From: Pontimicrobium aquaticum
Lineage (GTDB): Bacteria > Bacteroidota > Bacteroidia > Flavobacteriales > Flavobacteriaceae
Assembly (NCBI RefSeq): GCF_005047595.1
Contig: NZ_SUPL01000002.1
Coordinates: 124,001-188,000 of the forward strand
DNA: 64,000 nt
Direction: 5' to 3'
Under the pieces are notes generated by a model, which worked only from the letters and a program-made list of their open reading frames with translations, was not told the origin of the DNA and did no database searches. Numbering within the stretch: position 1 is the stretch's first letter; each line of letters opens with the position of its first letter. This document shows, in pieces, positions 30,889-61,265 of this stretch. Position numbers and translations under genes: made by a program.

Positions 30889-30933
30889 TGTCTTTTTTTT
30901 ACAATTTAAAGTTATCATTTTCAGGTACATTTC
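30889..30933 (+). promoter_or_regulatory. Regulon box copy a, before serine hydrolase/DinB pair
   Basis: Box TGTCTTTTTTTTACAATT (30889-30906), 19 bases, then TACATTTC (30926-30933). The expected transcription start near 30940 agrees with the ATG at 30957. One of six copies with identical spacing. Confidence 0.7.
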
Positions 30934-30956
30934 GACTTTAATTTAAATAATTGTTA

Positions 30957-32036
30957 ATGAAAAGAGTAATTATGTGTATAGCTATTTCAATTATAGCGAT
31001 ACAATTAAACGCACAAATAGACCAAAAAAGGATCAATGCCTTGGAAACATTTTTGGAAGAGCGGATGAAAAAAGACCAAATTCCGGGGTTGTTGGTTGCA
31101 GCCTCTTACAAAGGGGAGCTAATCTATACCAAGTCTTTAGGTATGGCCAGTTTGGAGCATAAGGTTCCCGTGATCGATTCTACTGTTTTTGAAATAGGTT
31201 CCATAAGCAAGCAATTTACAGCAGCACTTATAGTGATGTTGGAAGAAGAGAACAAGCTTAGCCTTGACGACCCCATTTCAAAATATGTTACGGAAATACC
31301 TGGGGAATGGTATGGTGTAACCATAAAACAGCTTTTAAACCATACTTCAGGGATCCCAGATTATGAAGCTATCGCTGGCTATCAATATTATGATAATAGG
31401 CGAACTCCAATGGATATCATAAAAGTAGCCAATTCAAAGCCATTGGATTTTAAGCCAGGTGAAAAATTTAGGTATTGTAACACAGGTTACTATTTGCTTT
31501 CAATGATAATTGAACGCGTAACGAACAAATCTTTTTTAGCTTGTTTGAGTGAAAAGATTTTAGAACCATTACAAATGGCTCGAACAGGATTGTTTGATCC
31601 GACAGAAATTATAAATAATAGGGCCTCGGGGTATTCGCGAACTAAAAGTCGAATAGAAAATAGGCGTCCATCTGAGCCTAGTTCTACTTTAGGAGCAGGA
31701 GGTTTGTCTTCAACAATAGCTGATATGGCCAAATGGGATGCGGCTTTATATGGTAATAGTATTTTGTCAACAGAAGCATTGGAAAAACTTTGGACACCAG
31801 GAGTACTCAATAATGGTAGTAAAATAGGGTATGGTTTAGGTTGGCGAATTGAACCTTATAAAGGTCATAAGGAGCAATATCACTACGGAATGATGTATGG
31901 TTTTGTTGCCAACATTACACGGTTTTCTGATGATGGTCTGACATTTTTTGTTTTTGCAAACAGGTATCAGTTGAGTTTGGGCAGGATAGTGGAAGCGGTA
32001 ATGGAGGCTTTTGTACCCGATTTGACTGAAGAATAA
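30957..32036 (+). CDS. Exported serine hydrolase (class C beta-lactamase / PBP fold)
   Basis: A 359-residue protein with a signal peptide (about 1-20, ending LNAQ) and a beta-lactamase-class-C-like domain. The catalytic SxxK is S82-I-S-K85; the YxN motif is YCN in FRYCNTGYYL; the third motif region is HYGMMYGF. Family members are D-aminopeptidases, esterases, beta-lactamases or carboxypeptidases, so the substrate stays open. The ATG at 30957 is preferred to the in-frame TTG at 30951. By eye the first 500 bases look somewhat more GC-rich than the neighbouring genes, which might reflect transfer. The DinB-like gene follows after 31 bases. Confidence 0.88.
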   Translation: MKRVIMCIAISIIAIQLNAQIDQKRINALETFLEERMKKDQIPGLLVAASYKGELIYTKSLGMASLEHKVPVIDSTVFEIGSISKQFTAALIVMLEEENKLSLDDPISKYVTEIPGEWYGVTIKQLLNHTSGIPDYEAIAGYQYYDNRRTPMDIIKVANSKPLDFKPGEKFRYCNTGYYLLSMIIERVTNKSFLACLSEKILEPLQMARTGLFDPTEIINNRASGYSRTKSRIENRRPSEPSSTLGAGGLSSTIADMAKWDAALYGNSILSTEALEKLWTPGVLNNGSKIGYGLGWRIEPYKGHKEQYHYGMMYGFVANITRFSDDGLTFFVFANRYQLSLGRIVEAVMEAFVPDLTEE

Positions 32037-32067
32037 AATATAATTTAAATAATGAAACTATAAAGAA

Positions 32068-32601
32068 ATGAAGAATATATTAGTATTTATAATTTACTCA
32101 GCTACACTGTTGTTTACTTCGATAAGTGTAGGGCAAGAAAAATTTAACTTTTCAAAACATCAAATAGAGGTTTGGAAGCTTGCAAAAACAAGAACCATTG
32201 TAGTAGCTAAGGCAATGCCAGAGTCAACTTACAATTATAGACCTACTAGTACAGTAATAAGTTTTGCTCAACAAATGGTGCACATTTCAAACAGTATGTT
32301 GTCTATGAATAGCCGATTCATTTTAGGGGAAGATTATATGGGAAATGAAAAAAATGCTTCAAAAATGACAAAGGAAGAAATTATTCTAGATTTAGAAAAT
32401 GCTTTCGATACTGTTATAAGCACATTAAAAAACATGACTGATAATGAATTACAGAAAACAGGTAAAAGGCATGGTAGATTTCCACTAACCAAATGGCAAT
32501 CTTTTTTGTTTATGAGAGATCATATAACAAACCATAGAGCTAAAGCAGTCCTATACTTAAGATTAAATAATATATCACCTCCAGCATATGGGTTTAATTA
32601 A
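32068..32601 (+). CDS. DinB-like protein with signal peptide
   Basis: A 177-residue four-helix DinB/YfiT-type protein (FAQQMVHISNSML ... FPLTKWQSFLFMRDHITNHRAKAVLYLRL) with histidines placed as in the metal-binding triad of the family. Unlike most DinB proteins, which are cytoplasmic thiol transferases or hydrolases, it starts with a hydrophobic signal peptide (about 1-22, ending SVGQ) and is probably exported. It shares a transcript with the serine hydrolase. Reaction unknown. Confidence 0.82.
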   Translation: MKNILVFIIYSATLLFTSISVGQEKFNFSKHQIEVWKLAKTRTIVVAKAMPESTYNYRPTSTVISFAQQMVHISNSMLSMNSRFILGEDYMGNEKNASKMTKEEIILDLENAFDTVISTLKNMTDNELQKTGKRHGRFPLTKWQSFLFMRDHITNHRAKAVLYLRLNNISPPAYGFN

Positions 32602-32628
32602 AAATTGCATAAAACATTTTTAAGATCA

Positions 32629-32673
32629 TGTCTCTTTTATACAATTTCAAAAGGTAATTTTTAAATACTTTGC
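32629..32673 (+). promoter_or_regulatory. Regulon box copy b, before VPS10/BNR gene
   Basis: Box TGTCTCTTTTATACAATT (32629-32646), 19 bases, then TACTTTGC (32666-32673). It lies 44 bases before the VPS10-like start. Confidence 0.75.
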
Positions 32674-32716
32674 GAGTTTAAAATTAAAAGAGTACTAACC
32701 TTAATTATCCTTTTTG

Positions 32717-35700
32717 ATGAAAAAAACAATTTTTCTATTTGCACTAGTATTTGCCACATGTTTTGTTCAACTTGCAACGGCACAAAAAAAGAAAAGCATA
32801 AACAATCAAGCTTTAGATAAAATTAATATCGATGGTTTAAAATGGAGAAATGTTGGACCTGCTTTAACTTCTGGAAGAATTTCAGACATTGCAGTAAACC
32901 CAAATAATATTAGTGAGTATTATGTAGCGTCTGCTTCAGGAGGTGTTTGGAAAACCACTAATTCGGGACTCACCTATAACCCAATTTTTGATAATGAAGG
33001 CTCATATTCAATAGGCTGTGTCACCATGGATCCCAACAATTCAAATGTCATTTGGGTAGGAACTGGAGAGAATAACAACCAACGTTCCGTTTCGTATGGA
33101 GATGGTATTTACAAATCTATTGATGGTGGTCAAAGTTGGCAACATATGGGATTAAAAATGTCTGAGCACATAGGTAAGATTATTGTGCACCCAGAAAACT
33201 CTGATATTATTTTTGTAGCAGCGATTGGACCTCTATGGAGTAAGGGAGGAGACAGAGGTTTGTATAAGTCTGTAGATGGAGGAAAAAACTGGAAAGCTGT
33301 TTTGATTATTGATGAACACACAGGAGTTAATGATGTTGTGATGGATCCTAGGAATCCAGATGTGCTATATGCTTCCACATTACAAAGAAGGAGGCATGTT
33401 TACACCTATGTTGGAGGTGGTCCAGAATCAGGGATGCACAAAAGCACAGATGGTGGCGAAACTTGGACTAAAATACACAAAGGTTTACCTAATGAGGAAC
33501 TTGGAAGGATAGGTTTGAGTATTTCATCAGCAAATCCAGAGATTATTTATGCTATTGTTGAAGCAGCAAATGGAAGAGGTGGTTTTTATAGATCTACCAA
33601 TAGAGGTGCTAGTTGGGAAAGAAGAGGGAATTATGTCACTAGCGGAAATTACTACCAAGAAATATTTGCAGACCCAGTAGATGAGAATACAGTGTATGCC
33701 ATGAACAACTGGATGAGAGTGAGTCACGATGGTGGAAGGACATTTATCATTGTGGGAGAAGATTATAAGCATATTGATAACCACGCCATGTGGATTAACC
33801 CAAACAACAATAAGCACTGGTTGGTAGGTTGCGATGGAGGGGTTTATGAAACTTTTGATGCAGCTGCCAATTGGGATTTTAAGGAAAACTTACCTGTTAC
33901 CCAATTTTATAAAGTAGCTTTAGATAACGACAAACCATTTTATAACATTTATGGAGGAACGCAAGATAACTTTAGTATTGGAGGCCCATCAAGGGTGCTT
34001 ACCGATCATGGAATAACCAATTTTGATTGGTTTATTACTCACGGAGGAGACGGTTTTGAATCGCAGGTAGATCCTAATAACCCAAACATTGTTTATGCAC
34101 AATCTCAATATGGTAGTTTAGTAAGGTTCGATAAGAAAAGCGGAGAAGAGGTAAGTATTCAGCCTAGTGAAAGAAAAAATGAAAACGCCTACCGTTGGAA
34201 TTGGGATGCTCCACTAGCGGTTAGTAAACATAAAAATGGCAGATTGTACTTCGCCGCCAACAAAGTGTTCAAATCTGATGATTATGGCAACAGTTGGCAA
34301 GTAATCAGTGATGATTTAACTAGGCAATTAGATAGAAATGCGCTCAAGGTTTATGATAGAGTGGTTAGTATTAATGCTGTTTCTAAAAATGACGGTGTCT
34401 CTCCTTATGGAACGATTGTAGCTTTATCAGAATCTCCAATCAATGACAATATGTTGGCTATAGGTACAGATGATGGACTTATACATATAACAGAAAATGG
34501 AGGGCAATCTTGGAGAAAAATTGATAACATCCCAGGAGCTCCAAAGCAATCGTATGTAAACAATGTTTACTTGTCAAGACACAACGTTAATGTTATTTAT
34601 GCAGCTTTTAATCATCATAAATATGGCGATTTTAAACCTTACTTATTCAAATCTAACGACAAAGGTAAAACTTGGACAAACATTAGTGGAAATTTACCTA
34701 ATAGAGGTAGTGTTTATGCCATAGAAGAAGACCATGTTGACGCAGATTTGATTTTTTGCGGAACGGAATTCGGGGTTTTCTTTTCTCCAAACACAGGAAA
34801 ACGCTGGAAACAATTTAAAAACGGATTGCCAACAATTGCTGTTCGTGATATTGCCATTCAAGAAAGGGAAAATGATTTAGTTCTTGGTACTTTTGGAAGA
34901 GGGTTTTATGTGCTCGATGATTATTCATCTTTAAGAAATATAGAAAACACGGAACCTAAAGAAAATATTATTTACCCTATTCGTGAAGCATTGATGTGGG
35001 AAAAAAGCTTGCCTTTAGGGCTTCCTGGAAAAGCATTTCAGGGAGATAATTTTTATACCGCAGATAATCTTGGTCCTGAAGCATTGATAACTTACTATTA
35101 TAAGGATGAATATACATCATTGGAAGGTGAACGAAAGAAAAAAGAAAAAAAGTTAATTAAAGAGCTAAAAGACACCCCTTATCCTAATTATGAACAGCTT
35201 AAAGCTGAAAACGAAGAAATTACCCATCAATTGGTTTTTACAATAAAAAATTCTAACGGAGTTATTGTAAAGAAATTTGTTAGAACGCCTAGCAAAGGTT
35301 TACAACGTTTTCATTGGGATTTAAGACATGAACAACAAACGCCTATAGATTTAAGTACGCCTTCTTTTTATAATCCGTTTTCGGCCACAAGGGAAGGATC
35401 CCTTGTCGCTCCTGGAACCTATACAATAGAAATGCATTTGTTTGATGGTAATACAATGACCAGTTTAACCGCTACAACAAAGTTTAATATAAGAGCATTA
35501 GATAATACTTTAATGCCTTCTAAAAACAGGGATGAAAAAGTGGCATTCCAACAAAAGGTGGAGGCACTAATGGCAGAAATTTCAGAATGTGGCGCAAAAT
35601 TATCCGATATCAATAATAAAATGCGCTACATAAGAGAGGCTATCAGACGTTCTAATGAGTCTTATGAAATATTAATGACTGAAGTTGTTAAAATTGAGAA

Positions 35701-35995
35701 AAAAATAGACGAGGTAAGTACCATGTTGTATGGCGATTCCAATAAAAGAAGATTAGATATAGATCAGCCACCTGGACCAGCCTCTAGGGTAGGAAACATA
35801 GTCTATGGTCAAAAATATTCAACAGCAGCACCTACTAAAACACATTTAGATAGTTACAACATCGCTAAGGAAGAATTTGAACCTATTAAAAAAATAGTGT
35901 CTCAACTGTATGAAATCGATATTAAACAATTGGAGAAAAAACTAAAAATTGCAAAAGCTCCTTATACTCCTGGTAGGTTAAAACCAAAGCAATAA
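32717..35995 (+). CDS. Exported VPS10/sortilin-like BNR-repeat propeller protein
   Basis: A 1092-residue protein with a signal peptide (about 1-22, ending ATAQ) and many Asp-box/BNR repeats of the form SxDxGxxW (for example SIDGGQSW, SVDGGKNW, STDGGETW, SNDKGKTW), building one or two beta-propellers over about residues 35-720, then a beta domain and a C-terminal helical segment (about 930-1010). Such proteins are often annotated as glycosyl hydrolases, but no sialidase catalytic set is evident. In Bacteroidetes they frequently accompany exported peptidases. Binding or hydrolytic role unknown. Start at the second ATG-type codon (32717), as the first is TTG. Confidence 0.85.
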   Translation: MKKTIFLFALVFATCFVQLATAQKKKSINNQALDKINIDGLKWRNVGPALTSGRISDIAVNPNNISEYYVASASGGVWKTTNSGLTYNPIFDNEGSYSIGCVTMDPNNSNVIWVGTGENNNQRSVSYGDGIYKSIDGGQSWQHMGLKMSEHIGKIIVHPENSDIIFVAAIGPLWSKGGDRGLYKSVDGGKNWKAVLIIDEHTGVNDVVMDPRNPDVLYASTLQRRRHVYTYVGGGPESGMHKSTDGGETWTKIHKGLPNEELGRIGLSISSANPEIIYAIVEAANGRGGFYRSTNRGASWERRGNYVTSGNYYQEIFADPVDENTVYAMNNWMRVSHDGGRTFIIVGEDYKHIDNHAMWINPNNNKHWLVGCDGGVYETFDAAANWDFKENLPVTQFYKVALDNDKPFYNIYGGTQDNFSIGGPSRVLTDHGITNFDWFITHGGDGFESQVDPNNPNIVYAQSQYGSLVRFDKKSGEEVSIQPSERKNENAYRWNWDAPLAVSKHKNGRLYFAANKVFKSDDYGNSWQVISDDLTRQLDRNALKVYDRVVSINAVSKNDGVSPYGTIVALSESPINDNMLAIGTDDGLIHITENGGQSWRKIDNIPGAPKQSYVNNVYLSRHNVNVIYAAFNHHKYGDFKPYLFKSNDKGKTWTNISGNLPNRGSVYAIEEDHVDADLIFCGTEFGVFFSPNTGKRWKQFKNGLPTIAVRDIAIQERENDLVLGTFGRGFYVLDDYSSLRNIENTEPKENIIYPIREALMWEKSLPLGLPGKAFQGDNFYTADNLGPEALITYYYKDEYTSLEGERKKKEKKLIKELKDTPYPNYEQLKAENEEITHQLVFTIKNSNGVIVKKFVRTPSKGLQRFHWDLRHEQQTPIDLSTPSFYNPFSATREGSLVAPGTYTIEMHLFDGNTMTSLTATTKFNIRALDNTLMPSKNRDEKVAFQQKVEALMAEISECGAKLSDINNKMRYIREAIRRSNESYEILMTEVVKIEKKIDEVSTMLYGDSNKRRLDIDQPPGPASRVGNIVYGQKYSTAAPTKTHLDSYNIAKEEFEPIKKIVSQLYEIDIKQLEKKLKIAKAPYTPGRLKPKQ

Positions 35996-36043
35996 CTTAA
36001 ACAATATACGATTACACTTTAAGAGAGTGTTTTAGATAAAACT

Positions 36044-36070
36044 AACCCATTGATATTGTTTCAATGGGTT
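36044..36070 (+). terminator. Intrinsic terminator after the VPS10-like gene
   Basis: AACCCATTGA (36044-36053) and TCAATGGGTT (36061-36070) are perfect 10-base arms with a 7-base loop, followed by TTATTTTTTG. ACCCATTGATTTTTTT recurs 20 bases further, a partial second copy. Confidence 0.82.
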
Positions 36071-36120
36071 TTATTTTTTGATATATACCCATTGATTTTT
36101 TTAAAAGAAGTTTTTCAACA

Positions 36121-36165
36121 AGTCTCTTTTATACAATTTTTGCTCATTTTTTCGAAATATTTTTG
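36121..36165 (+). promoter_or_regulatory. Regulon box copy c, before outer-membrane receptor
   Basis: Box AGTCTCTTTTATACAATT (36121-36138), 19 bases, then TATTTTTG (36158-36165), a full match to the -7 consensus. The gene starts 73 bases downstream. Confidence 0.75.
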
Positions 36166-36237
36166 ACTTTTAATAACTATCGTTTGGGTTGTTTGTAATT
36201 GTTTTTATCATGCCCATTCTAAAAATTGCACTTTTTT

Positions 36238-38646
36238 ATGAAAAATGTTTCAATGATTATTGTTTTCTTGTTTGCACAAAGTATGTTGGCGCAAATATCT
36301 GTTAAAGGTTCTGTGCTTGATAATGAAAACAAACCAATATCTTTTGCCAATATCGCAATATTTAATACGAATGATTCAACTTTGGTTAAAGGTGTTATAA
36401 GTGATGATGTAGGAAAATTTGAAATAAAATTACAAAGGGAGAAGAGTTATTTGTTAAAGGTGTCATTTCTAGGGTTTCAACAATTTGAAAAGAATTTTAA
36501 TAAATCTATTGATTTTGGGGATATTGTTTTAAAACCATTAGCTGAACAACTAAATAATGTTGTAGTTACAGCACAAAAACCTTTAATACAAAGACAACAG
36601 GATAAGCTTATTGTTAATGTGGAAGGTAGTACTGTAAGTTTAGGTAATTCAACTCTTGAGATATTGGAAAAATCACCTGGTATTATTGTTGACCAAGATG
36701 GAAACATGTCTTTAAGTGGAAGAAATGGTGTAAGGGTCTTTATGGATGGTAAAGATTTAAGGTTACAAGGAGATGAATTAGCTAATCTATTAAGAAGTAT
36801 GCCCTCATCTAATATCGAGAAAATTGAAATCATTACAAACCCTTCAGCAAAATATGAGGCTCAAGGAAATGCAGGAATTGTAAATATTGTAACCAAAAAA
36901 GGAAAACTTTTTGGCACTAATGGTAATTTAACCTTAACACCTGGATATGGAAGACATTTTAGGTGGGAAAATAGTATTAATATTAATCATAGAGGAGAAA
37001 AGTTTAATGTATATGGTCAATATTCACTTGCTAAGAGAACACAATGGATGAAGATTGATATTGATAGAGCATTTCTAGATGAAGATGACGATATAATTTC
37101 ATCTTATAAGTTAAAAAGTTTGTTCGATCTTCCAATAGAGGTTCACTCTCCGAGATTTGGTGTAGATTTCCAACCAAACAAAAAGACTTCTTATGGAATA
37201 GTGTTATCAAGTGTTATAAACAATAGTGGTTCAAAAGCTATAAATAAAATTAAGCAGTATGATGGTAATGGAGATTTGATATCCAATCAACTTACGGATA
37301 CAGATACAGATAGTAAGTGGAGGCAATTAATGACTAACTTTAATATTAGGCATGAATTTGAAAATAAAAGTGTTTTAGATTTTGATTTTGATTTGGCTAA
37401 ATATAATAACAGCTCAGATCAAAGTTATAATTCGTCATTCTTTACCCCAGAAGGAGAAGTTTCTAATGCAGATTTGCTTGAAGGTGATGTTGAAGGGTAT
37501 CTCGATTTATATGGCTTTTCTTTAGATTATGAATTGCCAATTTCTAATAAAAATAAGTTTGAAGCAGGTTGGAAAAACACTTGGGTTAAAACAGATAATG
37601 ATCTTTTATATTTTAATACTGTTGATGGAAATACAACCCAAAATAATCAGTTAAGCAATAGGTTTATATATGATGAAGCAATTTATGGATTGTATGCTAC
37701 TTATTCAATTAATAAAGAGAAGTACAATGCCCAAATAGGTTTAAGAGGTGAATACTCTGTAATAAGCGGAAACCAAGTGACGACAAATGACACATTCGAC
37801 AATCAATATTTTGAGCTTTTTCCATCAGCTACATTTAACTACTCATTAAATGAGAACAATGTTTTAGGAGTTTCTTTAAGTAGGCGTATAGATAGGCCAA
37901 GTTATGGGCAATTAAATCCATTTAGATTTTTTGTAGATACAAATTCATTTAGAGTTGGAAATCCTTTTCTAAAGCCTCAATTTACTTGGTTGAGTGAAAT
38001 TAACTATACGTTGAATAATAAATACTATTTTGCTTTTAGTTATGGTTATACAATTGATAATTTAAATGCAGGAATCCTTCAAGATGGTGAGGAGCAATCT
38101 ATAGTCGTCAAACCAATAAATATTGAGAGTCTTAATAGTTTTGCACTTACCTTTAGTGCTCCTTTTAAATTAGCATCATGGATCCAGTCTAATATCAATT
38201 TAAATGCATCATATAATATTTACGAAGGATTAGTATCTGGGTCACAATTAAACAGATCTACTCCTGTTGTCACGATAAATTCGAGCCACTCAATTAACTT
38301 GGGAAACAACTTTAGAATTCAGTTAGGAACATTTAATCTTTTGCCACATTATACAAGTATTACAAAAATCGAACACTTGTCATCGGTTTCTCTAGGAGCT
38401 CAAAAAACTGTTTGGGATGGTAAGGGGATATTTAGATTGAATATCAACGATATTTTCTGGAATCAATACCCTGTAGGATCGACGAACTTTGGAGGGTTAA
38501 AAGATAAATTCCATAGTTATAGAGATAATAGGTTCGCCACTTTTTCTTTTACTTGGAGATTTGGTAAACAAACTGTTAGAGCACAAAACAGAAGGAGAAC
38601 TGGAATTCAAGAAGAGTTAAATAGAGCAAGGCAACAAAACAAGTAG
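36238..38646 (+). CDS. TonB-dependent receptor-like outer-membrane barrel protein
   Basis: An 802-residue outer-membrane protein: signal peptide about 1-18 (ending MLAQ), a carboxypeptidase-regulatory-like domain (about 20-105), a plug domain with LNNVVVTAQKPLIQRQQDKLIVNVEGS and IEKIEIITNPSAKYEAQGNAGIVNIVTKK, then the OMP_b-brl_3 type barrel. This subfamily differs from SusC and often lacks a SusD partner, as here. Start at the ATG at 36238; the upstream in-frame codon is TTG (36226). Ligand unknown. It is preceded by a copy of the regulon box. Confidence 0.88.
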   Translation: MKNVSMIIVFLFAQSMLAQISVKGSVLDNENKPISFANIAIFNTNDSTLVKGVISDDVGKFEIKLQREKSYLLKVSFLGFQQFEKNFNKSIDFGDIVLKPLAEQLNNVVVTAQKPLIQRQQDKLIVNVEGSTVSLGNSTLEILEKSPGIIVDQDGNMSLSGRNGVRVFMDGKDLRLQGDELANLLRSMPSSNIEKIEIITNPSAKYEAQGNAGIVNIVTKKGKLFGTNGNLTLTPGYGRHFRWENSININHRGEKFNVYGQYSLAKRTQWMKIDIDRAFLDEDDDIISSYKLKSLFDLPIEVHSPRFGVDFQPNKKTSYGIVLSSVINNSGSKAINKIKQYDGNGDLISNQLTDTDTDSKWRQLMTNFNIRHEFENKSVLDFDFDLAKYNNSSDQSYNSSFFTPEGEVSNADLLEGDVEGYLDLYGFSLDYELPISNKNKFEAGWKNTWVKTDNDLLYFNTVDGNTTQNNQLSNRFIYDEAIYGLYATYSINKEKYNAQIGLRGEYSVISGNQVTTNDTFDNQYFELFPSATFNYSLNENNVLGVSLSRRIDRPSYGQLNPFRFFVDTNSFRVGNPFLKPQFTWLSEINYTLNNKYYFAFSYGYTIDNLNAGILQDGEEQSIVVKPINIESLNSFALTFSAPFKLASWIQSNINLNASYNIYEGLVSGSQLNRSTPVVTINSSHSINLGNNFRIQLGTFNLLPHYTSITKIEHLSSVSLGAQKTVWDGKGIFRLNINDIFWNQYPVGSTNFGGLKDKFHSYRDNRFATFSFTWRFGKQTVRAQNRRRTGIQEELNRARQQNK

Positions 38647-38676
38647 TAATTTAAATAAATGTTAAAACATAATGAC

Positions 38677-38721
38677 TGTCTCTTTTTTACAATCATAAAG
38701 TATTTATAGGTGCTATTTTAG
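38677..38721 (+). promoter_or_regulatory. Regulon box copy d, orphan promoter before a structured region
   Basis: Box TGTCTCTTTTTTACAATC (38677-38694), 19 bases, then TATTTTAG (38714-38721). No protein gene follows for 500 bases; instead a foldable sequence begins about 20 bases downstream. Confidence 0.7.
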
Positions 38722-38727
38722 TGTTTT

Positions 38728-38841
38728 GAATAGTATTATTTAGTCTTAAATGCCATTCTAGACTGTTTTTTTAAGGTTGGTGATTTTAGAAATTTTACAG
38801 TCGATTAAATAAATATAATTTAATTGAATGGCATTTTTAAC
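38728..38841 (+). ncRNA. Candidate small RNA with three-way-junction fold
   Basis: From a predicted start at about 38728, the sequence can fold into a closing stem of 11 perfect pairs (AAATGCCATTC 38748-38758 with GAATGGCATTT 38826-38836) that encloses two hairpins: GACTGT 38761-38766 with ACAGTC 38797-38802, and ATTAAAT 38804-38810 with ATTTAAT 38818-38824. The closing stem is followed by TTTTTAA, resembling a terminator tail. No coding frame of note is present. A 5' boundary set by promoter copy d and a 3' boundary at the U-run give about 114 bases. The fold was found by eye; no known RNA family was recognised. Confidence 0.45.
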
Positions 38842-38914
38842 TAATACATAAGTTAGATGTAAAGTAATGCTACTTTCTTACAGCTAACTCTTTTGAATTG
38901 ATGGATTTCTTTAT

Positions 38915-38978
38915 AAGCCATTCCTGAGGATCTTAATTAAAAATTTGAATAGATATTTTTTATTTGGAATGGCTTTTT
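38915..38978 (+). terminator. Second hairpin with U-run in the non-coding region
   Basis: AAGCCATTCC (38915-38924) pairs perfectly with GGAATGGCTT (38966-38975) across a 41-base loop and is followed by TTTTT-AA. It shares the GCCATTC core with the closing stem of the candidate RNA upstream. It may be a backup terminator or the end of a longer RNA. The rest of the gap 38647-39215 shows nothing else to me. Confidence 0.4.
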
Positions 38979-39215
38979 AATTAGTTTTTACCAAGTTGTA
39001 TTTGTGGTTTTAACACAACTGAATTTTATTTGTAAATCACACCTTTTTTTAATTAAACAAGCAAAAACACAAATCTCTCACGTATTTTTTTAATTCAAAT
39101 TTCAAAAATATATTCATTTTGAGGTAATGATTCAAAACTACAAAAATGATATGAATAAGTTGTTTTTTGATACAAACAACTTATAATTTATAATTATTTG
39201 TTAAATACAAGCTGC

Positions 39216-39260
39216 TGTCTGTTTTTTACAATTTACAAACGTGTACTACTAATATTTTTG
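39216..39260 (+). promoter_or_regulatory. Regulon box copy e, before small ORF and LytTR gene
   Basis: Box TGTCTGTTTTTTACAATT (39216-39233), 19 bases, TATTTTTG (39253-39260). It would drive the 45-codon ORF and then the LytTR gene, so the regulator may control itself. Confidence 0.72.
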
Positions 39261-39290
39261 TTTGAAACGTTTATTAAAAAAATAATTACA

Positions 39291-39428
39291 ATGCTATTTT
39301 TCTTTTATAAAAAGGTAATTGCAGTGACCTTGAATAAAGACGAATTAACAGCAGATATTGATTTGGCAAATAATAGTTTTTTAAGAAGAAACTCTCAAAG
39401 AGATTTTTATGAATTTAAAAACAATTAA
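39291..39428 (+). CDS. Small ORF, 45 aa, unknown
   Basis: A 45-residue frame starting at ATG 39291 (MLFFFYKKVIAVTLNKDELT...) and ending RDFYEFKNN, about 24 bases after the predicted transcription start of promoter e. The open frame extends upstream to 39198, but that part covers the promoter itself and cannot be translated from it. It has a short hydrophobic start and a polar, charged remainder; there are no cysteines or GG leader cleavage site. It might be a leader peptide or regulator; I do not recognise it. Confidence 0.35.
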   Translation: MLFFFYKKVIAVTLNKDELTADIDLANNSFLRRNSQRDFYEFKNN

Positions 39429-39513
39429 AAAACTAAATAGTAAAGTACGTTTCATAAAGTAGTTAGTTAACCAATTTAAAATTTAAAAAAGCATTAACGA
39501 GATAAATATTAAT

Positions 39514-39888
39514 ATGAAAAAGTTAAATGATGTTTATACATCTAATTACTTAAGTAAGATAGTTGTTAAAGAAAAAAACAAATATTTTTTTATAAAAACA
39601 CATGAAATAAAGTTTATCAAGTGCTCATCATATTATGCTGAGATTTACACACTTAAAAACGCAAAGTATGTTCATAGGATTAGTTCTATGGGAGACTTGT
39701 ATTTAAAGCTTGACCCAAGCAATTTCTTGAGAGTTAATAGGTCAAGTATTATCAATCTAAATGAGATAAAAGAAGTTGTTAGTGAAGGGATGGGAGATTT
39801 TAGTATTGTTATGAATGATAATACATCTTTTAGTTTAAGTAAAAAGTACAAGAAAAATGTTCTGCATGATCTAGAAATCAAGCAGTAG
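39514..39888 (+). CDS. Single-domain LytTR DNA-binding regulator
   Basis: A 124-residue protein consisting only of a LytTR DNA-binding domain: FFIKTHEIKFIKCSSYYAEIYTLKNAKYVHRISSMGDLYLKLDPSNFLRVNRSSIINLNEIKEV is the canonical beta-rich fold, with the F-R-V-N-R-S turn strongly conserved. There is no receiver or membrane domain. LytTR domains bind direct repeats and activate by recruiting polymerase. Its gene is preceded by a regulon box copy, and it sits in the centre of the six copies, which makes it a candidate controller of the regulon (inference). Confidence 0.88.
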   Translation: MKKLNDVYTSNYLSKIVVKEKNKYFFIKTHEIKFIKCSSYYAEIYTLKNAKYVHRISSMGDLYLKLDPSNFLRVNRSSIINLNEIKEVVSEGMGDFSIVMNDNTSFSLSKKYKKNVLHDLEIKQ

Positions 39889-40004
39889 CAAATTTTAATA
39901 AATATCCCAAAAATCCATTTATTTATCATTCTTTACTGTGTATTTATCAATCAATCTAATCAAACAAGTTAATTCACTTTTTTTACGTAGCAATTTTTAA
40001 CAGA

Positions 40005-40116
40005 GGTAGGGCAGCACTTCAATTTTAGTGGAGTTTCACTAAACTTTGCTTTCATTTTTTTGATGAATAGATATTTGAATTAGTCTTCTTAATATTTATA
40101 TGCTGCCTACCTTTTT
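40005..40116 (+). other. Nested palindromic structure in the susC leader region
   Basis: GGTAGGGCAGCA (40005-40016) pairs with TGCTGCCTACC (40101-40111) with one bulged base, followed by TTTTT. Inside, TTTAGTG (40024-40030) and CACTAAA (40037-40043) form a perfect hairpin with a 6-base loop. TTTTTAA occurs on both sides (39994-40000 and 40112-40118). It may be a terminator of the LytTR transcript, a structured leader of susC, or a short inverted-repeat element. Confidence 0.45.
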
Positions 40117-40164
40117 AAATTGCCTAATCCAAAAAATAATAAAATAACATTAAACTAAAAATTT

Positions 40165-43100
40165 ATGAAGTTAAAGAATTGCTTTATGCTGTCATTATTA
40201 TTGCTATTTAATATAGCAATGACGGTGGCACAAGGAAAAACAATTTCAGGGAATGTTTCAGATGATACTGGAATGCCACTCCCTGGAGCAAATATTATTA
40301 TCAAAGGTACAACAACAGGAGCTCAATCAGACTTTGATGGTAATTACACCATTACAGCAAGTGTTGGAGATGTACTCCAATTTAGTTACGTTGGAATGAC
40401 AACAGTTGAAAAAACAGTTGGAGCATCTAATGTCATTAATGTTGTGCTAGCAATGTCCAATGAGCTTGAAGAAGTAGTTGTTATGGGATATGGATCCCAA
40501 TCAAGGACTGAGCTAACAAGTTCAACTGTTCAAGTAGATGCTGAGGAAATTGAGTTGGTTCCTGTATCAACAGTTGACCAAGTACTACAGGGTAAAGTTG
40601 CTGGTTTAGTATTTAATGGGGACTCTGGTACTCCGGGTTCAACTACAGATATTCGTATTAGAGGTGTGAGTTCTATTACAGCCGGTAACGAACCATTATA
40701 TGTTATTGATGGTGTACCAATGAACAACGATAATGTATCGGCTACTAGTTCAGGATCTTCTCTATCTGCTTTGGCAAGTATCAATAGTAATAATATTGAG
40801 AGTATTACAGTGTTAAAAGATGCTTCTGCAACTGCAGCATATGGTGCACGTGGTGCTAATGGAGTTATTGTAATTACGACCAAATCGGGAAAAAAAGGTA
40901 AAACTACATTTAATTTTAGCTCTTCTTATGGTTTTGGTAATGATGCTACAGACGGTCCAACAGTATTGACGGGAGCGCAAAGAGAAATGCTATTTTATGA
41001 GGCATTAATAAATACTTATGGTGCAGGTTTTGGTTTTAATGACCAAGCAGGTGCTAAAGCTTTTTATGAGGCTAACCCAAATTTTTTTGGAACCGATTAT
41101 GCTGTATGGAATGCTAATGGAAGACAAGAAACAAATTGGGCTGATTTAATTACAAATGAAGATGCACCAATACAGGAATATAACTTAAGTGCTAGAGGAG
41201 GTAATGAAAACTATAATTTCTATACATCTTTTGGGTATTTTGACCAAGAAGCAACAGTAATTGGCTCTGAGTTTAACAGAATGACCGGTACTATCAATTT
41301 TAGTCAAAAGCTAAGCGATAATATAAGGTTTTCAACTAGAAATAGTGCGTCACATACCTATCAAGATGGGTTGTTAGAGGCGAGTGCTTATTTTTCATCG
41401 CCTAGAGCAGCAAAGTATTTTCAACCAGCTATAGAACCAGCATACAATGAGGATGGAACCATAAATGTATCAGGTACAGTTCCAAATCCGCTATGGATAG
41501 CTCAAGAGGATATTGATGATTCGAAGTTTACAAGAATTATCAGTAACAACTCTTTTGAGTGGGATACACCAATAGATGGTTTAAAGTTAACTTCTAGAGC
41601 TAACATTGATTACCAAGTATATAATTATAAGCGTTATAGAAACAGGGTAAGAGGAGATGGCGATGGAGATACAAGTGGTTATGGTTGGCAAGCACATAAT
41701 AATATAGTGACTTATGTATTTCAAAATACGTTAGATTACACTTGGAACATTAACGATGATCATAGTATTGACTTTACAGCTGTGCAAGAATTTCAAAAAA
41801 ACAGAAACTACTATTTAGATGCTGATGGGGATTCTTTTGCTACAGACGGTTTAACAAATTTAGCTTCGGCGGGTAATCCGACTTCTGCTTTTTCTAGCTT
41901 TGAAGATTGGGCTTTGGCGCGTTATGTAGGTATTATACATTATTCGGGATATAATGGAAAGTATGTCATTGATGGGACTTTTACAAGAGAGGGGAACTCT
42001 CGTTTTTCTTCAGCTAATCGATGGGGTAACTTTTGGTCTGTAGGTGCTGCATGGAACTTACATAAGGAGAGCCTCTTGGAAAATTCTGAGGTGATTAATA
42101 ATTTAAAACTTAGAGGGTCCTTTGGTGTGACGGGTAATGCTAATATAAGTCTAAATCAGTATCAAGCACAGTTTGGTTTTGAAGGAAGTTATGCAGGTCA
42201 AGGTGCCATTAATCCTGATGTTTTTGGTAATGATAATTTGTCGTGGGAAACTTCACATACTTTAGATGTTGGTATTGATTTTGGCTTATTTAACAATATT
42301 GTTTCTGGTACAGCAGGGTATTACAAACGAGAATCCAAGAATCTATTGCTAGATGTGCCATTGTCGTTCACAACTGGATTTGATGAGCAGACAAGAAACA
42401 TCGGTAGAATGGAAAATAAAGGATTTGAAGTAGAATTGAATATTGATATTGTCCGTTCAAAAGATTTTAACTTATCTATTGGAGGAAATATGGCAACCAC
42501 TAAAAATGAGGTGTTGGAATTGGCCAAAGACGGTAATGGAGAAACCATTAATATCAGTGGAGGCTCAAGAACCAGAACCGAAGAAGGTCAACCAGTTTGG
42601 GGATGGCATATGCGAAAGTGGGCAGGAGTAGATCCAGCAAATGGTGACGAACTTTATTACTTGAATGGTAAAGATGGCGCGACTACAAATAATTGGAACA
42701 TAGCAGAAAGAGCTTTTCAAGGAGGAAGTGCCATTCCTGAATTAACAGCAGGTATGAACATTCATGTTGACTATAAAGGGTTCTTTTTGGATGCCAACGG
42801 ATATTTTGCAGGTGGACATAAAGTATATGAAGATTGGCATCGTTATACCAATGGAACAAATTACTTTTCTACATTATACTATCAAGGAGTTGATGCCGTA
42901 TTAGACAGATGGCAACAACCAGGAGATACTGGAAAGCGTTTTGGAAGATTTGAAGCCACAGCTGCTACACCTTGGCAAGCAAGTTCTAAGTTTCTATATG
43001 AAGGGGATTATTTCAGGCTTAAAAACCTAACAATAGGGTATGATTTTAAAGCACCTGTATTAGATGCTGTTGGTTTAGATGGTGCTCGTGTATTCGTGAG

Positions 43101-43233
43101 AGGTACAAACATCCTTACATGGGTTAAAGATGAAAACCTTAAGTACGATCCCGAAGTTGATGCCGGCGGTGTGATAGGACTAACAACACCACCAGTAAAA
43201 TCATTCATTTTTGGACTTAACGTTAAATTTTAA
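40165..43233 (+). CDS. SusC/RagA-type TonB-linked outer-membrane transporter
   Basis: A 1022-residue SusC-family protein: signal peptide about 1-22, carboxypeptidase-regulatory-like domain GKTISGNVSDDTGMPLPGANIIIKGTTTGAQSDFDGNYTI, the plug with EEVVVMGYGSQSR and the SusC signature IESITVLKDASATAAYGARGANGVIVITTKSG, and a large barrel ending FIFGLNVKF. It imports oligomers with its SusD partner, encoded 6 bases downstream. Normal length for the family. Substrate unknown; no polysaccharide enzymes are nearby. Confidence 0.95.
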   Translation: MKLKNCFMLSLLLLFNIAMTVAQGKTISGNVSDDTGMPLPGANIIIKGTTTGAQSDFDGNYTITASVGDVLQFSYVGMTTVEKTVGASNVINVVLAMSNELEEVVVMGYGSQSRTELTSSTVQVDAEEIELVPVSTVDQVLQGKVAGLVFNGDSGTPGSTTDIRIRGVSSITAGNEPLYVIDGVPMNNDNVSATSSGSSLSALASINSNNIESITVLKDASATAAYGARGANGVIVITTKSGKKGKTTFNFSSSYGFGNDATDGPTVLTGAQREMLFYEALINTYGAGFGFNDQAGAKAFYEANPNFFGTDYAVWNANGRQETNWADLITNEDAPIQEYNLSARGGNENYNFYTSFGYFDQEATVIGSEFNRMTGTINFSQKLSDNIRFSTRNSASHTYQDGLLEASAYFSSPRAAKYFQPAIEPAYNEDGTINVSGTVPNPLWIAQEDIDDSKFTRIISNNSFEWDTPIDGLKLTSRANIDYQVYNYKRYRNRVRGDGDGDTSGYGWQAHNNIVTYVFQNTLDYTWNINDDHSIDFTAVQEFQKNRNYYLDADGDSFATDGLTNLASAGNPTSAFSSFEDWALARYVGIIHYSGYNGKYVIDGTFTREGNSRFSSANRWGNFWSVGAAWNLHKESLLENSEVINNLKLRGSFGVTGNANISLNQYQAQFGFEGSYAGQGAINPDVFGNDNLSWETSHTLDVGIDFGLFNNIVSGTAGYYKRESKNLLLDVPLSFTTGFDEQTRNIGRMENKGFEVELNIDIVRSKDFNLSIGGNMATTKNEVLELAKDGNGETINISGGSRTRTEEGQPVWGWHMRKWAGVDPANGDELYYLNGKDGATTNNWNIAERAFQGGSAIPELTAGMNIHVDYKGFFLDANGYFAGGHKVYEDWHRYTNGTNYFSTLYYQGVDAVLDRWQQPGDTGKRFGRFEATAATPWQASSKFLYEGDYFRLKNLTIGYDFKAPVLDAVGLDGARVFVRGTNILTWVKDENLKYDPEVDAGGVIGLTTPPVKSFIFGLNVKF

Positions 43234-43239
43234 AAAATT

Positions 43240-44604
43240 ATGAAAAAAGTATATATATTATTTACAACACTTGCCTTTATTGGGCTAATATCGTGTAACA
43301 CAGAGGATTTAGAACCCTCTTTAGAACAAAATAAATCTGTAGAAGGGAGTATTACTAGTGTAGAAGATTTATATGGTATCATAAAAGGAGCCTATAACGA
43401 AATGACAGCTTCTGGCTACTATGGTAGAGATTTTATTATAAACAATGAGGTACGTACAGACAACTGTTTTTCAAATGGTAATTCAGGACGTTTTACGACA
43501 GAGGCATCTTTTGCCTATACACCTAACACAGGGTTTATGTTTGATGATGCTTACCAAGCTATTGCAGCCGCCAATATTATTATTGGGACTGATGTTGCTT
43601 CGTTAGAGGGTGATACAGATTATGGTCTACACATTCAAGGACAAGCTTATGCAGTGAGAGCTTTGGCACATTTTGATGTTTTGAAGCAGTATGGACAACA
43701 ACATGTTGGTGGAACATTGGGAATACCTTATGTAAAAGAATTTAAAGGAGATAATCTTTTTCCAGCTAGAAATACAATTTCTGAAAACAAAGCAGATATT
43801 TATGCAGATTTAGAAACAGCTTTTAGTTTAATGGATGATAACTATTTTGACAGCTCAAAAGAGTTTATGTCAAAATATACCGCTAAAGCATTGGAATCTA
43901 GAGTGGCAACTTATTTTGGTGATTGGCCTAGAGTGGTTGATGCCGCTGAGGAAGTGATCAATTCTAACTTATATTCAATAATGTCGGCAGCTAATTATGT
44001 GGGTTCTTGGGCTAGCAAGGGTAATAACAATTCTATCTTTGAATTAGCATTTAATACGTCTGATAATTTAAACATTAGCAGTTTAGGAAATATTTATAGA
44101 ACCACAGGTGGTGGAAGTTATGGTGATATTCAGGTTATTGACGGAGTAGATGCTATTTTTGAACCCGGAGATGTTAGAGGTGGTATTTTAGGCTATGAAG
44201 GTGTAATGTTGAGAAATATTGGGAAGTTCCCTAGTAATCAAGGTTATGATAATGTTGTTATCATTAGGTATGAAGAAGTTATTTTAAACTATGCGGAAGC
44301 ATTATTTGAAACTGGTGGAGATGCCTTAACGCAGTTAAACCTAATTACATCTAACAGGGGAGCTACACCTTATTTAACAGCTACTAAAGAAAACATTTTA
44401 AACGAAAGAAGAAAGGAATTAATGTTTGAAGGACATAGATTTGATGATTTGGTTAGAACAGGTCAGGATATTGAAAAGACATCCCTTCAGCAAAACTTTG
44501 CGTCAACAATCCCTTATGGCGATCATAGATTAGCATGGCCAATTCCTCAAGCGGAAATAGATGCCAACTCTAATATGGAACAAAATCCGGGTTACGGAAA
44601 CTAA
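43240..44604 (+). CDS. SusD/RagB family lipoprotein
   Basis: A 454-residue lipoprotein with lipobox GLISC (Cys19) and the SusD helical fold, including TPR-like segments (ALAHFDVLKQYG, ADIYADLETAF) and the conserved end LNERRKELMFEGHRFDDLVRTG ... LAWPIPQAEIDANSNMEQNPGY. It is the surface substrate-binding lid of the upstream SusC transporter. Somewhat short for the family, as in many flavobacterial SusD proteins. Followed by a strong terminator. Confidence 0.95.
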   Translation: MKKVYILFTTLAFIGLISCNTEDLEPSLEQNKSVEGSITSVEDLYGIIKGAYNEMTASGYYGRDFIINNEVRTDNCFSNGNSGRFTTEASFAYTPNTGFMFDDAYQAIAAANIIIGTDVASLEGDTDYGLHIQGQAYAVRALAHFDVLKQYGQQHVGGTLGIPYVKEFKGDNLFPARNTISENKADIYADLETAFSLMDDNYFDSSKEFMSKYTAKALESRVATYFGDWPRVVDAAEEVINSNLYSIMSAANYVGSWASKGNNNSIFELAFNTSDNLNISSLGNIYRTTGGGSYGDIQVIDGVDAIFEPGDVRGGILGYEGVMLRNIGKFPSNQGYDNVVIIRYEEVILNYAEALFETGGDALTQLNLITSNRGATPYLTATKENILNERRKELMFEGHRFDDLVRTGQDIEKTSLQQNFASTIPYGDHRLAWPIPQAEIDANSNMEQNPGYGN

Positions 44605-44629
44605 TAACAGTTTAATCTAGTTAGGAATA

Positions 44630-44660
44630 AAAACCACCGCATGTTGATGCGGTGGTTTTT
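44630..44660 (+). terminator. Intrinsic terminator of susCD
   Basis: AAAACCACCGCAT (44630-44642) and ATGCGGTGGTTTT (44647-44659) are perfect complements with a 4-base loop and a T run. Confidence 0.93.
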
Positions 44661-44793
44661 TTACATAAAAAAAGAGGATGATAGTTTTAATTTTAAGAAA
44701 ACAATATGAAAAATTAACATTTTATTTAGTAACAATACATATATATTTCAGTCTTTAGTATAACAGTTATTTCTAATAATAAATGTGCAATTA

Positions 44794-45615
44794 ATGAGTG
44801 ACTATAAAGAGTATCAGGTTAAAAATGGTTTGAACAAGTACATAGATTGTGTTTGGAGAGATGACTTTAATAAGTATTTAGGTAATGGTGACAAAAAAAT
44901 ATTAGTTGTCCCTGATAATACAATAGAATTGGCTTTTACTTCAAACTCTGTTGAGAGAACGGCAAAGCATAGCAAAAAAAAAATATGTAAGATTAAGTCA
45001 CATTTATGTGGACTAAAAACAGAGCCTCAATTAGTTGGTTTAGAAGGAGATGTTTTATTGTCTGTTAGGTTTAAACCTTATGGACTATATCCTTTTACTA
45101 AAACAGATATCAATAAAACCATTAATGAATCTTTGCTTCCAGAAGATATTTTTGGTAAGGAGATACTTGTTCTAGAAGAGCAACTATTTAACACAAGTGA
45201 CGAGTTGGAACAAGTAAAATTTATTGAAGATTTTTTTCTGAAGAAGCTCAATAGTAATAATAAAGAGGTGGATCATGTTTTTAACTTTTTTATTCAAAAC
45301 ATTATTTTAAACAAAGGGAATGTTAATGTTGATATGTTGGCAGAGAAATGTAATGTGTCAAAAAAAACAGTAGAACGTAAGTTTTTATCAAAGTTAGGCT
45401 TAACCCCAAAAAAATACTGTCGTATAGTAAGGATGTTTAATGCTTTAAAAATCCCTAAGAATAAAAAAGATTTAAAGTTATCCTCGATAGCATTTGATAA
45501 CGGTTTTTATGATCAAGCACATTTTATTAAGGAAGTAAAGGAATTCACAGGAATGACACCTAAAAACTATTTTGATATAGATAGAACTGTACAGACCAAT
45601 ATTTTCTTGCACTAA
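44794..45615 (+). CDS. AraC family transcriptional regulator (DUF6597-type N-terminus)
   Basis: A 273-residue regulator: N-terminal domain YQVKNGLNKYIDCVWRDDF...VVPDNTIELAF, as in DUF6597-containing AraC proteins, and a C-terminal pair of helix-turn-helices (NVDMLAEKCNVSKKTVERKFLSKLGLTPKKYCRIVRM ... LSSIAFDNGFYDQAHFIKEVKEFTGMTPKNYF). The ATG at 44794 is preferred to GTG at 44785. It stands alone between susCD and the 15-gene exported operon; no convincing regulon box was found before it. It could sense a ligand and control susCD or the operon (inference). Confidence 0.88.
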   Translation: MSDYKEYQVKNGLNKYIDCVWRDDFNKYLGNGDKKILVVPDNTIELAFTSNSVERTAKHSKKKICKIKSHLCGLKTEPQLVGLEGDVLLSVRFKPYGLYPFTKTDINKTINESLLPEDIFGKEILVLEEQLFNTSDELEQVKFIEDFFLKKLNSNNKEVDHVFNFFIQNIILNKGNVNVDMLAEKCNVSKKTVERKFLSKLGLTPKKYCRIVRMFNALKIPKNKKDLKLSSIAFDNGFYDQAHFIKEVKEFTGMTPKNYFDIDRTVQTNIFLH

Positions 45616-45839
45616 CATAACTAAATTTTTCTTCTTATTTTTTTAATTTCTTATCTTATAACTGATTGGGCGACTTTGTCGCATTCATTAAAAAAGAATT
45701 TTCTATTTAAATCGAAATAGGGATAATTTAAAGTACCGTTAGAAATAACAATCAAAAAATATTTTGCTTAATAAATTAGAAAATAATTCTTCTTCTTAAA
45801 TTTCTAATAAGCGTAGTATTAACATAGTTTAACTTTTAC
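45616..45839. other. Non-coding gap before the exported operon
   Basis: No coding frame is supported. It holds a small hairpin GCGAC-TTT-GTCGC (45670-45682) without a T run and an inverted repeat ATTAGAAA (45775-45782) / TTTCTAAT (45801-45808), 32 bases upstream of regulon box f; the latter could be a protein-binding site. Confidence 0.3.
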
Positions 45840-45884
45840 TGTCTCTTTTTTACAATTCTATGACCACTAAGCAGTCTAATTTTA
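45840..45884 (+). promoter_or_regulatory. Regulon box copy f, before the 15-gene exported operon
   Basis: Box TGTCTCTTTTTTACAATT (45840-45857), 19 bases, TAATTTTA (45877-45884). The first gene of the long run starts 27 bases downstream. Confidence 0.75.
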
Positions 45885-47311: not shown

Positions 47312-47317
47312 GATAAA

Positions 47318-48682: not shown

Positions 48683-48716
48683 TCATTAAAAGAATAAGTA
48701 AATCAATCAAAAAAAC

Positions 48717-50618: not shown

Positions 50619-50640
50619 AGACTTAAAAGGGGCATTTAGT

Positions 50641-51801: not shown

Positions 51802-51805
51802 AAAT

Positions 51806-52975: not shown

Positions 52976-53046
52976 AATCATATAATTACAAGTAATTAAG
53001 TTTAATCACTTAAACTAATAACACAAAAACAACATACATATTAATC

Positions 53047-53838: not shown

Positions 53839-53886
53839 ATAAATGATTTCTAGTATTCGAGTGATTTCATTATCAAAAGAAACAAA

Positions 53887-56677: not shown

Positions 56678-56688
56678 ATACAAGAATC

Positions 56689-57639: not shown

Positions 57640-57652
57640 AAAACACATTTAA

Positions 57653-59068: not shown

Positions 59069-59087
59069 AAACAATAATTATTAAGAG

Positions 59088-59525: not shown

Positions 59526-59542
59526 GATTTAAAATAAGGAAA

Positions 59543-60145: not shown

Positions 60146-60228
60146 ACCAAAAATTGGCAAATCAATGGAATGTCAAATCTCGAATTAGAACTCTTGGAAA
60201 TTTGCTTAATATTTAGAATATAGCTAAA

Positions 60229-61208: not shown

Positions 61209-61265
61209 AAAAATCAAAAGCTATATTTCATTTAATAAGCTCGTAAAGAAGTTTTAATAGTAAAA

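Follow-up and report, generated by a model that had tools for sequence, protein, structure and literature searches.

An 18-base promoter box in Pontimicrobium aquaticum is the predicted operator of an AraC/DUF6597 regulator with relatives across Bacteroidota

Results

A cluster of 18-base boxes at a fixed distance from a -7 element

The window analyzed here, a 64,000-nucleotide stretch of the Pontimicrobium aquaticum genome (contig NZ_SUPL01000002.1, here C12, positions 124001-188000; the whole genome comprises 3.31 Mb in 22 contigs), contains an island of genes for exported hydrolases and receptors in which an 18-base box recurs ahead of a -7 promoter element. The island also encodes an AraC-type regulator with an N-terminal DUF6597 domain and a lone LytTR DNA-binding domain, both of which the initial annotation of this DNA had named as regulators to be examined for binding. 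Judged from sequence comparisons, the box is very probably bound by the AraC/DUF6597 protein, and by neither the LytTR protein nor an alternative σ factor. The features of the island, in window coordinates, are as follows.

30889-30906, plus strand: box copy 1, TGTCTTTTTTTTACAATT; -7 element TACATTTC at 30926-30933; ahead of the open reading frame (ORF) 30951-32036
32629-32646, plus strand: box copy 2, TGTCTCTTTTATACAATT; -7 element TACTTTGC at 32666-32673; ahead of a sortilin/BNR-repeat protein gene, 32714-35995
36121-36138, plus strand: box copy 3, AGTCTCTTTTATACAATT; -7 element TATTTTTG at 36158-36165; ahead of an outer-membrane beta-barrel protein gene, 36226-38646
38677-38694, plus strand: box copy 4, TGTCTCTTTTTTACAATC; -7 element TATTTTAG at 38714-38721; followed by a candidate structured noncoding RNA, 38728-38990
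39216-39233, plus strand: box copy 5, TGTCTGTTTTTTACAATT; -7 element TATTTTTG at 39253-39260; ahead of a short ORF, 39291-39428, and the LytTR gene
45840-45857, plus strand: box copy 6, TGTCTCTTTTTTACAATT; -7 element TAATTTTA at 45877-45884; 224 bp past the araC stop and ahead of a long gene run that begins at 45911
44785-45615, plus strand: AraC-type regulator, N-terminal DUF6597 (PF20240) and AraC domain (PF12833) with two helix-turn-helix motifs (HTHs); proposed binder of all eight boxes (two lie beyond the window)
39514-39888, plus strand: lone LytTR DNA-binding domain of 124 aa, with neither a receiver domain nor an adjacent kinase gene; proposed box target
30951-32036, plus strand: ORF behind box copy 1, beta-lactamase-fold serine hydrolase (PF00144)
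45911-62738, plus strand: genes past box copy 6, encoding beta-lactamase-fold hydrolases, M61 and trypsin-like peptidases, TraB, DUF4440 and alpha/beta hydrolases

The six boxes that the initial annotation had described, on the plus strand and with few changes, were all recovered (30889, 32629, 36121, 38677, 39216 and 45840; 0-2 mismatches), and a scan of both strands of the window at up to 3 mismatches returned these six and no others. Shuffled versions of the window gave a mean of 0.57 matches and a maximum of 2, with six reached in 0/100 shuffles. The same scan found zero boxes between 1 and 30 kb of the window, as the annotation had said. In 6/6 window copies the gap between the box and its -7-like element is exactly 19 nt, and two more copies with this spacing lie just beyond the window, at C12:188320 and C12:189649; the constant distance first reported thus holds for these as well. 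The -7 element is looser than the TAnnTTTG-like form originally proposed. Specifically, the core [TC]AnnTT is present in 8/8 copies and exact TAnnTTTG in 2/8, and 3/8 read YAnnTTGY (32666-32673, belonging to the box at 32629, and, for the two copies beyond the window, L031:3357-3364 and L031:4686-4693). The comparison that had been drawn with a local tRNA promoter proved correct, TTG-N19-TATATTTG being readable there.

Eight copies with at most 2 mismatches and the 19-nt spacing exist in the whole genome, all on one strand of C12 between 154889 and 189649 and thus within 35 kb. When spacing was disregarded, the genome yielded nine sites at this threshold, the eight cluster copies and C16:441237, where the -7 place reads CTGGTTGATG, which is not a -7 element. 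Allowing 3 mismatches added 28 scattered sites, compared with a total of 19 sites for a reversed-pattern control, and the informative set is therefore that at 2 mismatches or fewer. A box-plus-(-7) weight matrix, built from the eight copies that it scores, gave these copies 29.5-36.3 over 111 kb around the island, with 15.4 for the next best site. The genome-wide scan that had been proposed as a check thus finds the good copies clustered. Five other genomes of the genus contain 15 box matches at 2-3 mismatches (one of them at 2) versus 9 for the reversed control. In none of the five is there anything close to the eight copies of the window genome; the eight-box cluster is no trait of the genus.

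The AraC/DUF6597 regulator and many of its relatives carry the box nearby

The protein encoded at 44785-45615 matches PF12833 (8.4e-16) and PF00165 (3.6e-11), both above the curated cut-offs, and thus has the two HTHs of an AraC DNA-binding domain. Its N-terminus matches DUF6597 (PF20240; 2.8e-11, 43.8 bits versus a cut-off of 27). Among six candidates scored in the window genome, it was the sole match at an E value of 1e-15; these six were fully scored from 23 first-look candidates. A search of the Protein Data Bank returned one match at an E value of 0.001, a chain of a hybrid two-component system (HTCS).

Relatives of this protein are found next to the same box. A contig of G785, a Flavobacteriaceae metagenome-assembled genome (MAG), carries an orthologous island with five boxes and an AraC protein 65% identical to that of the window, with a box 17 bp past its stop. 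The G785 contig has part of the window island in common: boxes occupy orthologous places before the lumazine-like, DUF418 and 45911-type hydrolase genes, and others lie behind araC and before a BLc-type hydrolase gene. In G328, which belongs to another genus, the AraC protein is 63% identical and a box again lies 17 bp behind araC. A search for the exact box-N19-(-7) pattern in one genome per species, over 84,980 species, returned five stretches. One is the G785 island, and in the Niabella and Owenweeksia MAG stretches the box follows the end of an AraC homolog by 5 and 8 bp, respectively. In the Algoriphagus stretch the box is ~4.8 kb from an AraC gene that has another box beside it; this second box starts 13 bp past the end of the AraC match, and the reading frame continues through it. 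The fifth stretch, from Lachnospiraceae, has no match to the island proteins and is probably a chance occurrence. A further cluster was seen in G637, where each of three successive genes, for proteins of 262, 226 and 172 aa, is preceded by a TGTCGCATTTTTACAAT box (L219:2566, 3440 and 4206) and an AraC gene lies further on, at 5463. Multibox arrangements thus arose more than once.

Box and promoter lie behind many araC homologs across the phylum

Of 395 genomes of the class, 63, the window genome among them, encode AraC homologs with an E value of at most 1e-15. For the placement analysis we used the best 89 of the 110 homologs outside the window genome, leaving out the 21 weakest. A box-plus-(-7) matrix trained on 22 of the 89 loci was applied with leave-one-out scoring to the zone from 20 bp before to 180 bp after each araC stop, a score of at least 8 being counted as a site, and the 200 bp upstream of the gene and the reverse strand served as controls. 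Sites were found near the araC stop in 55/89 homologs, versus 2/88 upstream (the upstream control of L095 was not scorable) and 0/89 on the reverse strand. With a matrix of the box alone, lacking the -7 columns, 48/89 had a box behind the stop, compared with 2/88 upstream, 3/89 on the reverse strand and 0/89 in midgene. The 8-33 nt past these 48 boxes hold 31 exact YAnnTTTG elements, 25 of them at 19 nt, 5 at 20 nt and 1 at 10 nt. Relative to the end of the araC stop codon, 41/48 boxes start at -3 to +18 bp, and the next start codon is 54-92 nt from the box start in 58/62 loci, with three further off and one with no next ORF found. The next gene encodes a glyoxalase-fold protein in 21/61 cases; others encode DUF1398, DUF6265, NAD-binding and more proteins.

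A phylum-wide search gave 30 loci, or 18 further ones after removal of 12 repeats, and in 16/18 the box again stands behind the gene. Fifteen of these score at least 15; the sixteenth, L250, was left unscored by the ORF rule, and its box, 17 bp past the match, was found on reading the sequence. Among further loci labeled as outside the class, 12/14 have the box. Thus, in many relatives across Bacteroidota a matching box and promoter appear to follow the regulator gene directly, at a place from which they could drive the next gene.

Several observations weigh against so general a reading. The search that yielded the 18 further loci used a profile built from box-bearing proteins and so favors the box-bearing subfamily. 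Of the 89 homologs, 34 scored below the threshold; some of these have divergent boxes, but a fair number have none nearby, and L187 counts as a miss through an internal stop, its box beginning 2 bp past its match. Two high-scoring homologs, L234 and L235, have no adjacent box. The DUF6597 domain does not separate the groups, being present in 54/56 box-bearing proteins versus 29/31 of the scannable rest, a group from which L157, L187 and L199 were omitted and in which four loci have lower-scoring sites. Placement also varies: at L170 and L184 the box is before, not behind, the AraC gene (scores of 20.6 and 21.8), at L168 three boxes lie upstream of the AraC gene and none behind it, and in the window itself the box is 224 bp past araC rather than 1-18 bp. 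Moreover, the window scan found no box before araC, so self-regulation is not evident there.

Box variation follows the two recognition helices

Across the family the right half of the box (TTTTACAATT) hardly changes, and the left half differs between members (TGTCGCA, TGTCCCA, TTTCGTT, AAACGAT, GGTAAAT and more). We compared pairwise differences between boxes with pairwise differences between proteins; the control for shared ancestry was the distance across the remainder of the protein, not a tree. The 64 pairs were selected by a score of at least 6.9, with five loci from elsewhere included. From the family fold we placed the recognition helices of the window AraC protein, presumably, at about aa 191-201 (HTH1) and aa 241-252 (HTH2). 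Differences in helix 1 (aa 191-201) went along with those in the left half (r = 0.46, p = 0.0002) but not in the right half (-0.27); helix 2 (aa 241-252) showed the converse, with 0.37 for the right half (p = 0.0014) and -0.31 for the left. A sliding 11-residue window over aa 1-265, in 46 proteins, had its best start at 193 for the left half and at 242 for the right, and the maximum-over-windows statistic for the same 46 proteins gave p values of 0.0005 and 0.003, respectively. Under stricter filtering to 39, 32 and 25 proteins the same two windows won, with p = 0.0005 each time for the left half and 0.004-0.02 for the right. L089, which is misaligned in helix 1, was dropped from these stricter runs with no change in result; in one box-helix table, the scores of column 10 rest on one sequence and are meaningless.

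The box thus behaves as a bipartite site, the left half covarying with aa 193-203 and the right half with aa 242-252, on evidence that is statistical, not physical. This covariation suggests that the AraC proteins contact their boxes, HTH1 on the upstream and HTH2 on the promoter side. A distinct box type, AAACGATTTTTTACAAT, was noted at L161, L162, L165, L178, L182, L242 and L246. In five of these seven loci, those included in the helix table, it pairs with the helix SQSPxEKRF, and in three of the five the next protein starts alike (MFT..Q.K.AH.KVKSGADFP).

Taken with the placement data, we consider it likely that these proteins form a large, uncharacterized family of AraC/DUF6597 activators across Bacteroidota, with operator and promoter hard-wired behind the regulator's own gene and a box sequence that follows from two short recognition helices. 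In the window, a one-gene module would then have grown into an eight-promoter island, and sequence alone would suffice to predict what many unstudied regulators target and how specific they are.

Promoter geometry points to class II activation

A protein that stands at a constant distance from the -7 element and replaces the -33 element behaves as a class II activator. The geometry of the box corresponds to such a site: the spacing is 19 nt in 8/8 island copies, and 30/31 exact YAnnTTTG elements found with the box-only matrix lie at 19-20 nt. TTG or TTTG is present at the -33 place in 0/63 family sites. The primary-σ element TAnnTTTG of Flavobacterium psychrophilum is placed at -12 to -5 in the consulted part of PMC9723704; if the -7 element is so positioned here, the box spans -49 to -32 and is centered at -40.5. 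The retained -7 element, the conserved box at -33 and the constant spacing together support an activator-type promoter, one of the two kinds offered in the initial annotation. The 30 bp upstream of the family sites contain at most 0.20 bits per position, with no sign of a second half-site. A single 18-bp site therefore seems enough, and a dimer on direct repeats was dropped as a model. A TTTAAC-like stretch does recur upstream of some window sites.

In the model that we propose, the AraC/DUF6597 regulator encoded at 44785-45615 uses every 18-base box as its operator. A single AraC domain would lie along each box, its first HTH reading the left part, TGTCTC, and its second the promoter-proximal TTTTACAATT at the usual -33 place. 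Centered near -40.5, the protein would assist ordinary primary-σ RNA polymerase at the -7 element 19 bases on, in class II fashion. One regulator, responding to a signal perhaps sensed by DUF6597, would thereby switch the exported hydrolases, the receptors, the LytTR protein and perhaps a small RNA, as would its counterpart at the multiple promoters of G785. That the regulator is a class II activator of all eight box promoters, to which the box may have spread, is in our view highly likely.

The same protein could bind the box and repress, blocking the -33 region until a ligand relieves it. The box does overlap the -33 place, where a bound protein could occlude polymerase. However, with TTG or TTTG at that place in 0/63 family sites there would be no good promoter to repress, the constant distance to the -7 element fits contact with polymerase, and AraC-type proteins are mostly activators. 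We regard repression as unlikely.

Other candidate readers of the box

The lone LytTR protein, the other regulator named in the initial annotation, could in principle bind the box and regulate itself and the island, since its gene lies inside the island with a box ahead of it and known LytTR sites contain ACAnTT-like repeats. The distribution of the gene argues otherwise. On the G785 island contig, which has five boxes and the AraC gene, no LytTR gene was found, and the LytTR matches in the five other box-bearing genomes searched (G784-G787 and G328) show just 24-46% identity and, with two exceptions, lie in frames of at least 179 aa; the LytTR gene thus does not travel with the sites. Sites with fewer than 3 mismatches were present at 0/15 scanned loci of LytTR relatives, and box variation follows the AraC helices. 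A LytTR reader is thus very improbable and was rejected, leaving AraC as the supported one of the two proteins first named. The eight closest relatives of the LytTR protein in 397 genomes of the family are 51-58% identical and occupy open frames of 262-289 aa; at the three loci that were read, a receiver-LytTR response regulator stands beside a LytS-like kinase gene. The window protein has apparently lost both receiver and kinase, and we propose that its gene is a box target rather than the box reader.

An alternative, ECF-type σ factor, the other kind of promoter first suggested, could recognize the box as its -33 element. A conserved element at the -33 place with fixed spacing would suit it, and the YAnnTTGY form of 3/8 -7 elements resembles the SM5 promoter class of F. 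psychrophilum in the consulted part of PMC9723704. Against this, the -7 element stays near the primary-σ type, and no distinct -7 element with its own σ factor gene nearby was found, though 3/8 copies read YAnnTTGY. The scan for σ factor genes, which covered the island ORFs and not the rest of the genome, found none. Eighteen base pairs are long for a σ element. Boxes adjoin araC genes across the phylum, and the covariation of the box with the two AraC recognition helices disfavors an alternative σ factor, which is not required and which we consider most improbable.

Conservation outside box and -7 element is slight among the eight copies, at most about 0.5 bit per column in the 19-nt gap and up to 0.8 bit in single columns of the 60 nt upstream, and the eight sites are therefore not copies of one longer segment. 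A mobile or duplicated promoter segment with no common regulator, although it would account for eight near-identical copies within one 35-kb stretch, is hardly credible given this and the retention of box and -7 element beside araC genes in other genomes; the AraC/DUF6597 protein remains the preferred reader.

Relation to known systems

Class II AraC-family activators of the RhaS and MarA/SoxS type have a two-HTH domain and an ~18-bp site over the upstream promoter element, centered near -41, in which HTH1 takes the distal part and HTH2 the proximal part. The system described here shares the two HTHs, the site length, the center and the orientation. It differs from them in its -33/-7 Bacteroidota promoter in place of -35/-10, in its DUF6597 sensor domain, in the lack of a conserved upstream half-site, and in an operator that often lies behind the regulator's own gene. 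The hybrid two-component systems of Bacteroides, as far as the consulted parts of PMC3878776 and PMC11253607 describe them, likewise combine an AraC-type DNA-binding domain with local regulons in the same phylum; here, in contrast, there is one 18-bp box and neither receiver nor kinase. The Bacteroides rhamnose regulator RhaR (PMC3870299, in part) is also an AraC-family regulator of the phylum with a predicted motif, from which the present box differs in being single. The primary-σ promoters of F. psychrophilum share the TAnnTTTG -7 element, and their SM5 variant TAnnTTGY resembles 3/8 copies; unlike them, the promoters here have a box at the -33 place, and AraC is not mentioned in the main text of PMC9723704. 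PMC8692822 deals in general terms with inferring the operators of regulators, those of the AraC family among them.

In the open-licence literature searched, subscription papers not being covered, we found no account of the DUF6597 family or its box, nor of a box placed behind the regulator gene or of the eight-copy island; neither the word DUF6597 nor two of the 18-base box sequences occurred in the papers searched. Activation by AraC-type class II proteins is already known as a mechanism, and it is the family-wide box and the eight-copy island that were not found there.

Regulators are numerous in Bacteroidota and few have known sites, partly because the promoters differ from the textbook kind. 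In many members of one family the regulator's own site now appears to lie at a set position past the gene, with a fixed promoter geometry, which would provide ready-made regulator-site pairs for a protein-DNA recognition code and for regulon prediction, as well as compact regulator-promoter modules for Bacteroidota. The usual module seems to consist of one regulator, one box and one next gene, whereas here there are eight box places; the island may show how such a module can expand to coordinate many exported hydrolases.

Genes and a candidate RNA of the island

By Pfam, the island encodes beta-lactamase-fold serine hydrolases, a sortilin-like BNR protein, an outer-membrane beta-barrel protein, LytTR, and M61, M13 and trypsin-like peptidases, with further matches to DUF418, a lumazine-binding-like protein and others. 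Three of the beta-lactamase-fold proteins come near AmpH, D-aminopeptidase and class C enzymes in NCBIfam, all rows shown being below the curated cut-off. An Rfam scan gave nothing beyond tRNA and one subthreshold RsaE-like match (44628-44704, minus strand; 31.3 bits, cut-off 79), which is probably just a terminator hairpin past the SusD-like gene.

The initial annotation had placed the boxes ahead of exported hydrolases, receptors and the LytTR gene, but the copy at 38677 precedes no evident gene: behind it on the plus strand there is one 29-aa ORF at 39004, and the first longer ORF, 39198-39428 (76 aa), starts just before the 39216 box and overlaps it. The RNA 38728-38990 folds better than shuffled sequences (z = -3.46; 1/200 shuffles equally good), with one stem ending in GAATGGCATTTTT and a second hairpin ending in GGAATGGCTTTTT, and is a candidate small RNA that may be driven by box copy 4; no homolog was found among the loci compared. 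Between box copy 5 and the LytTR gene, the 3′ part of ORF 39291-39428 (45 aa) looks coding-like by eye, and this ORF is perhaps a gene remnant or a leader peptide.

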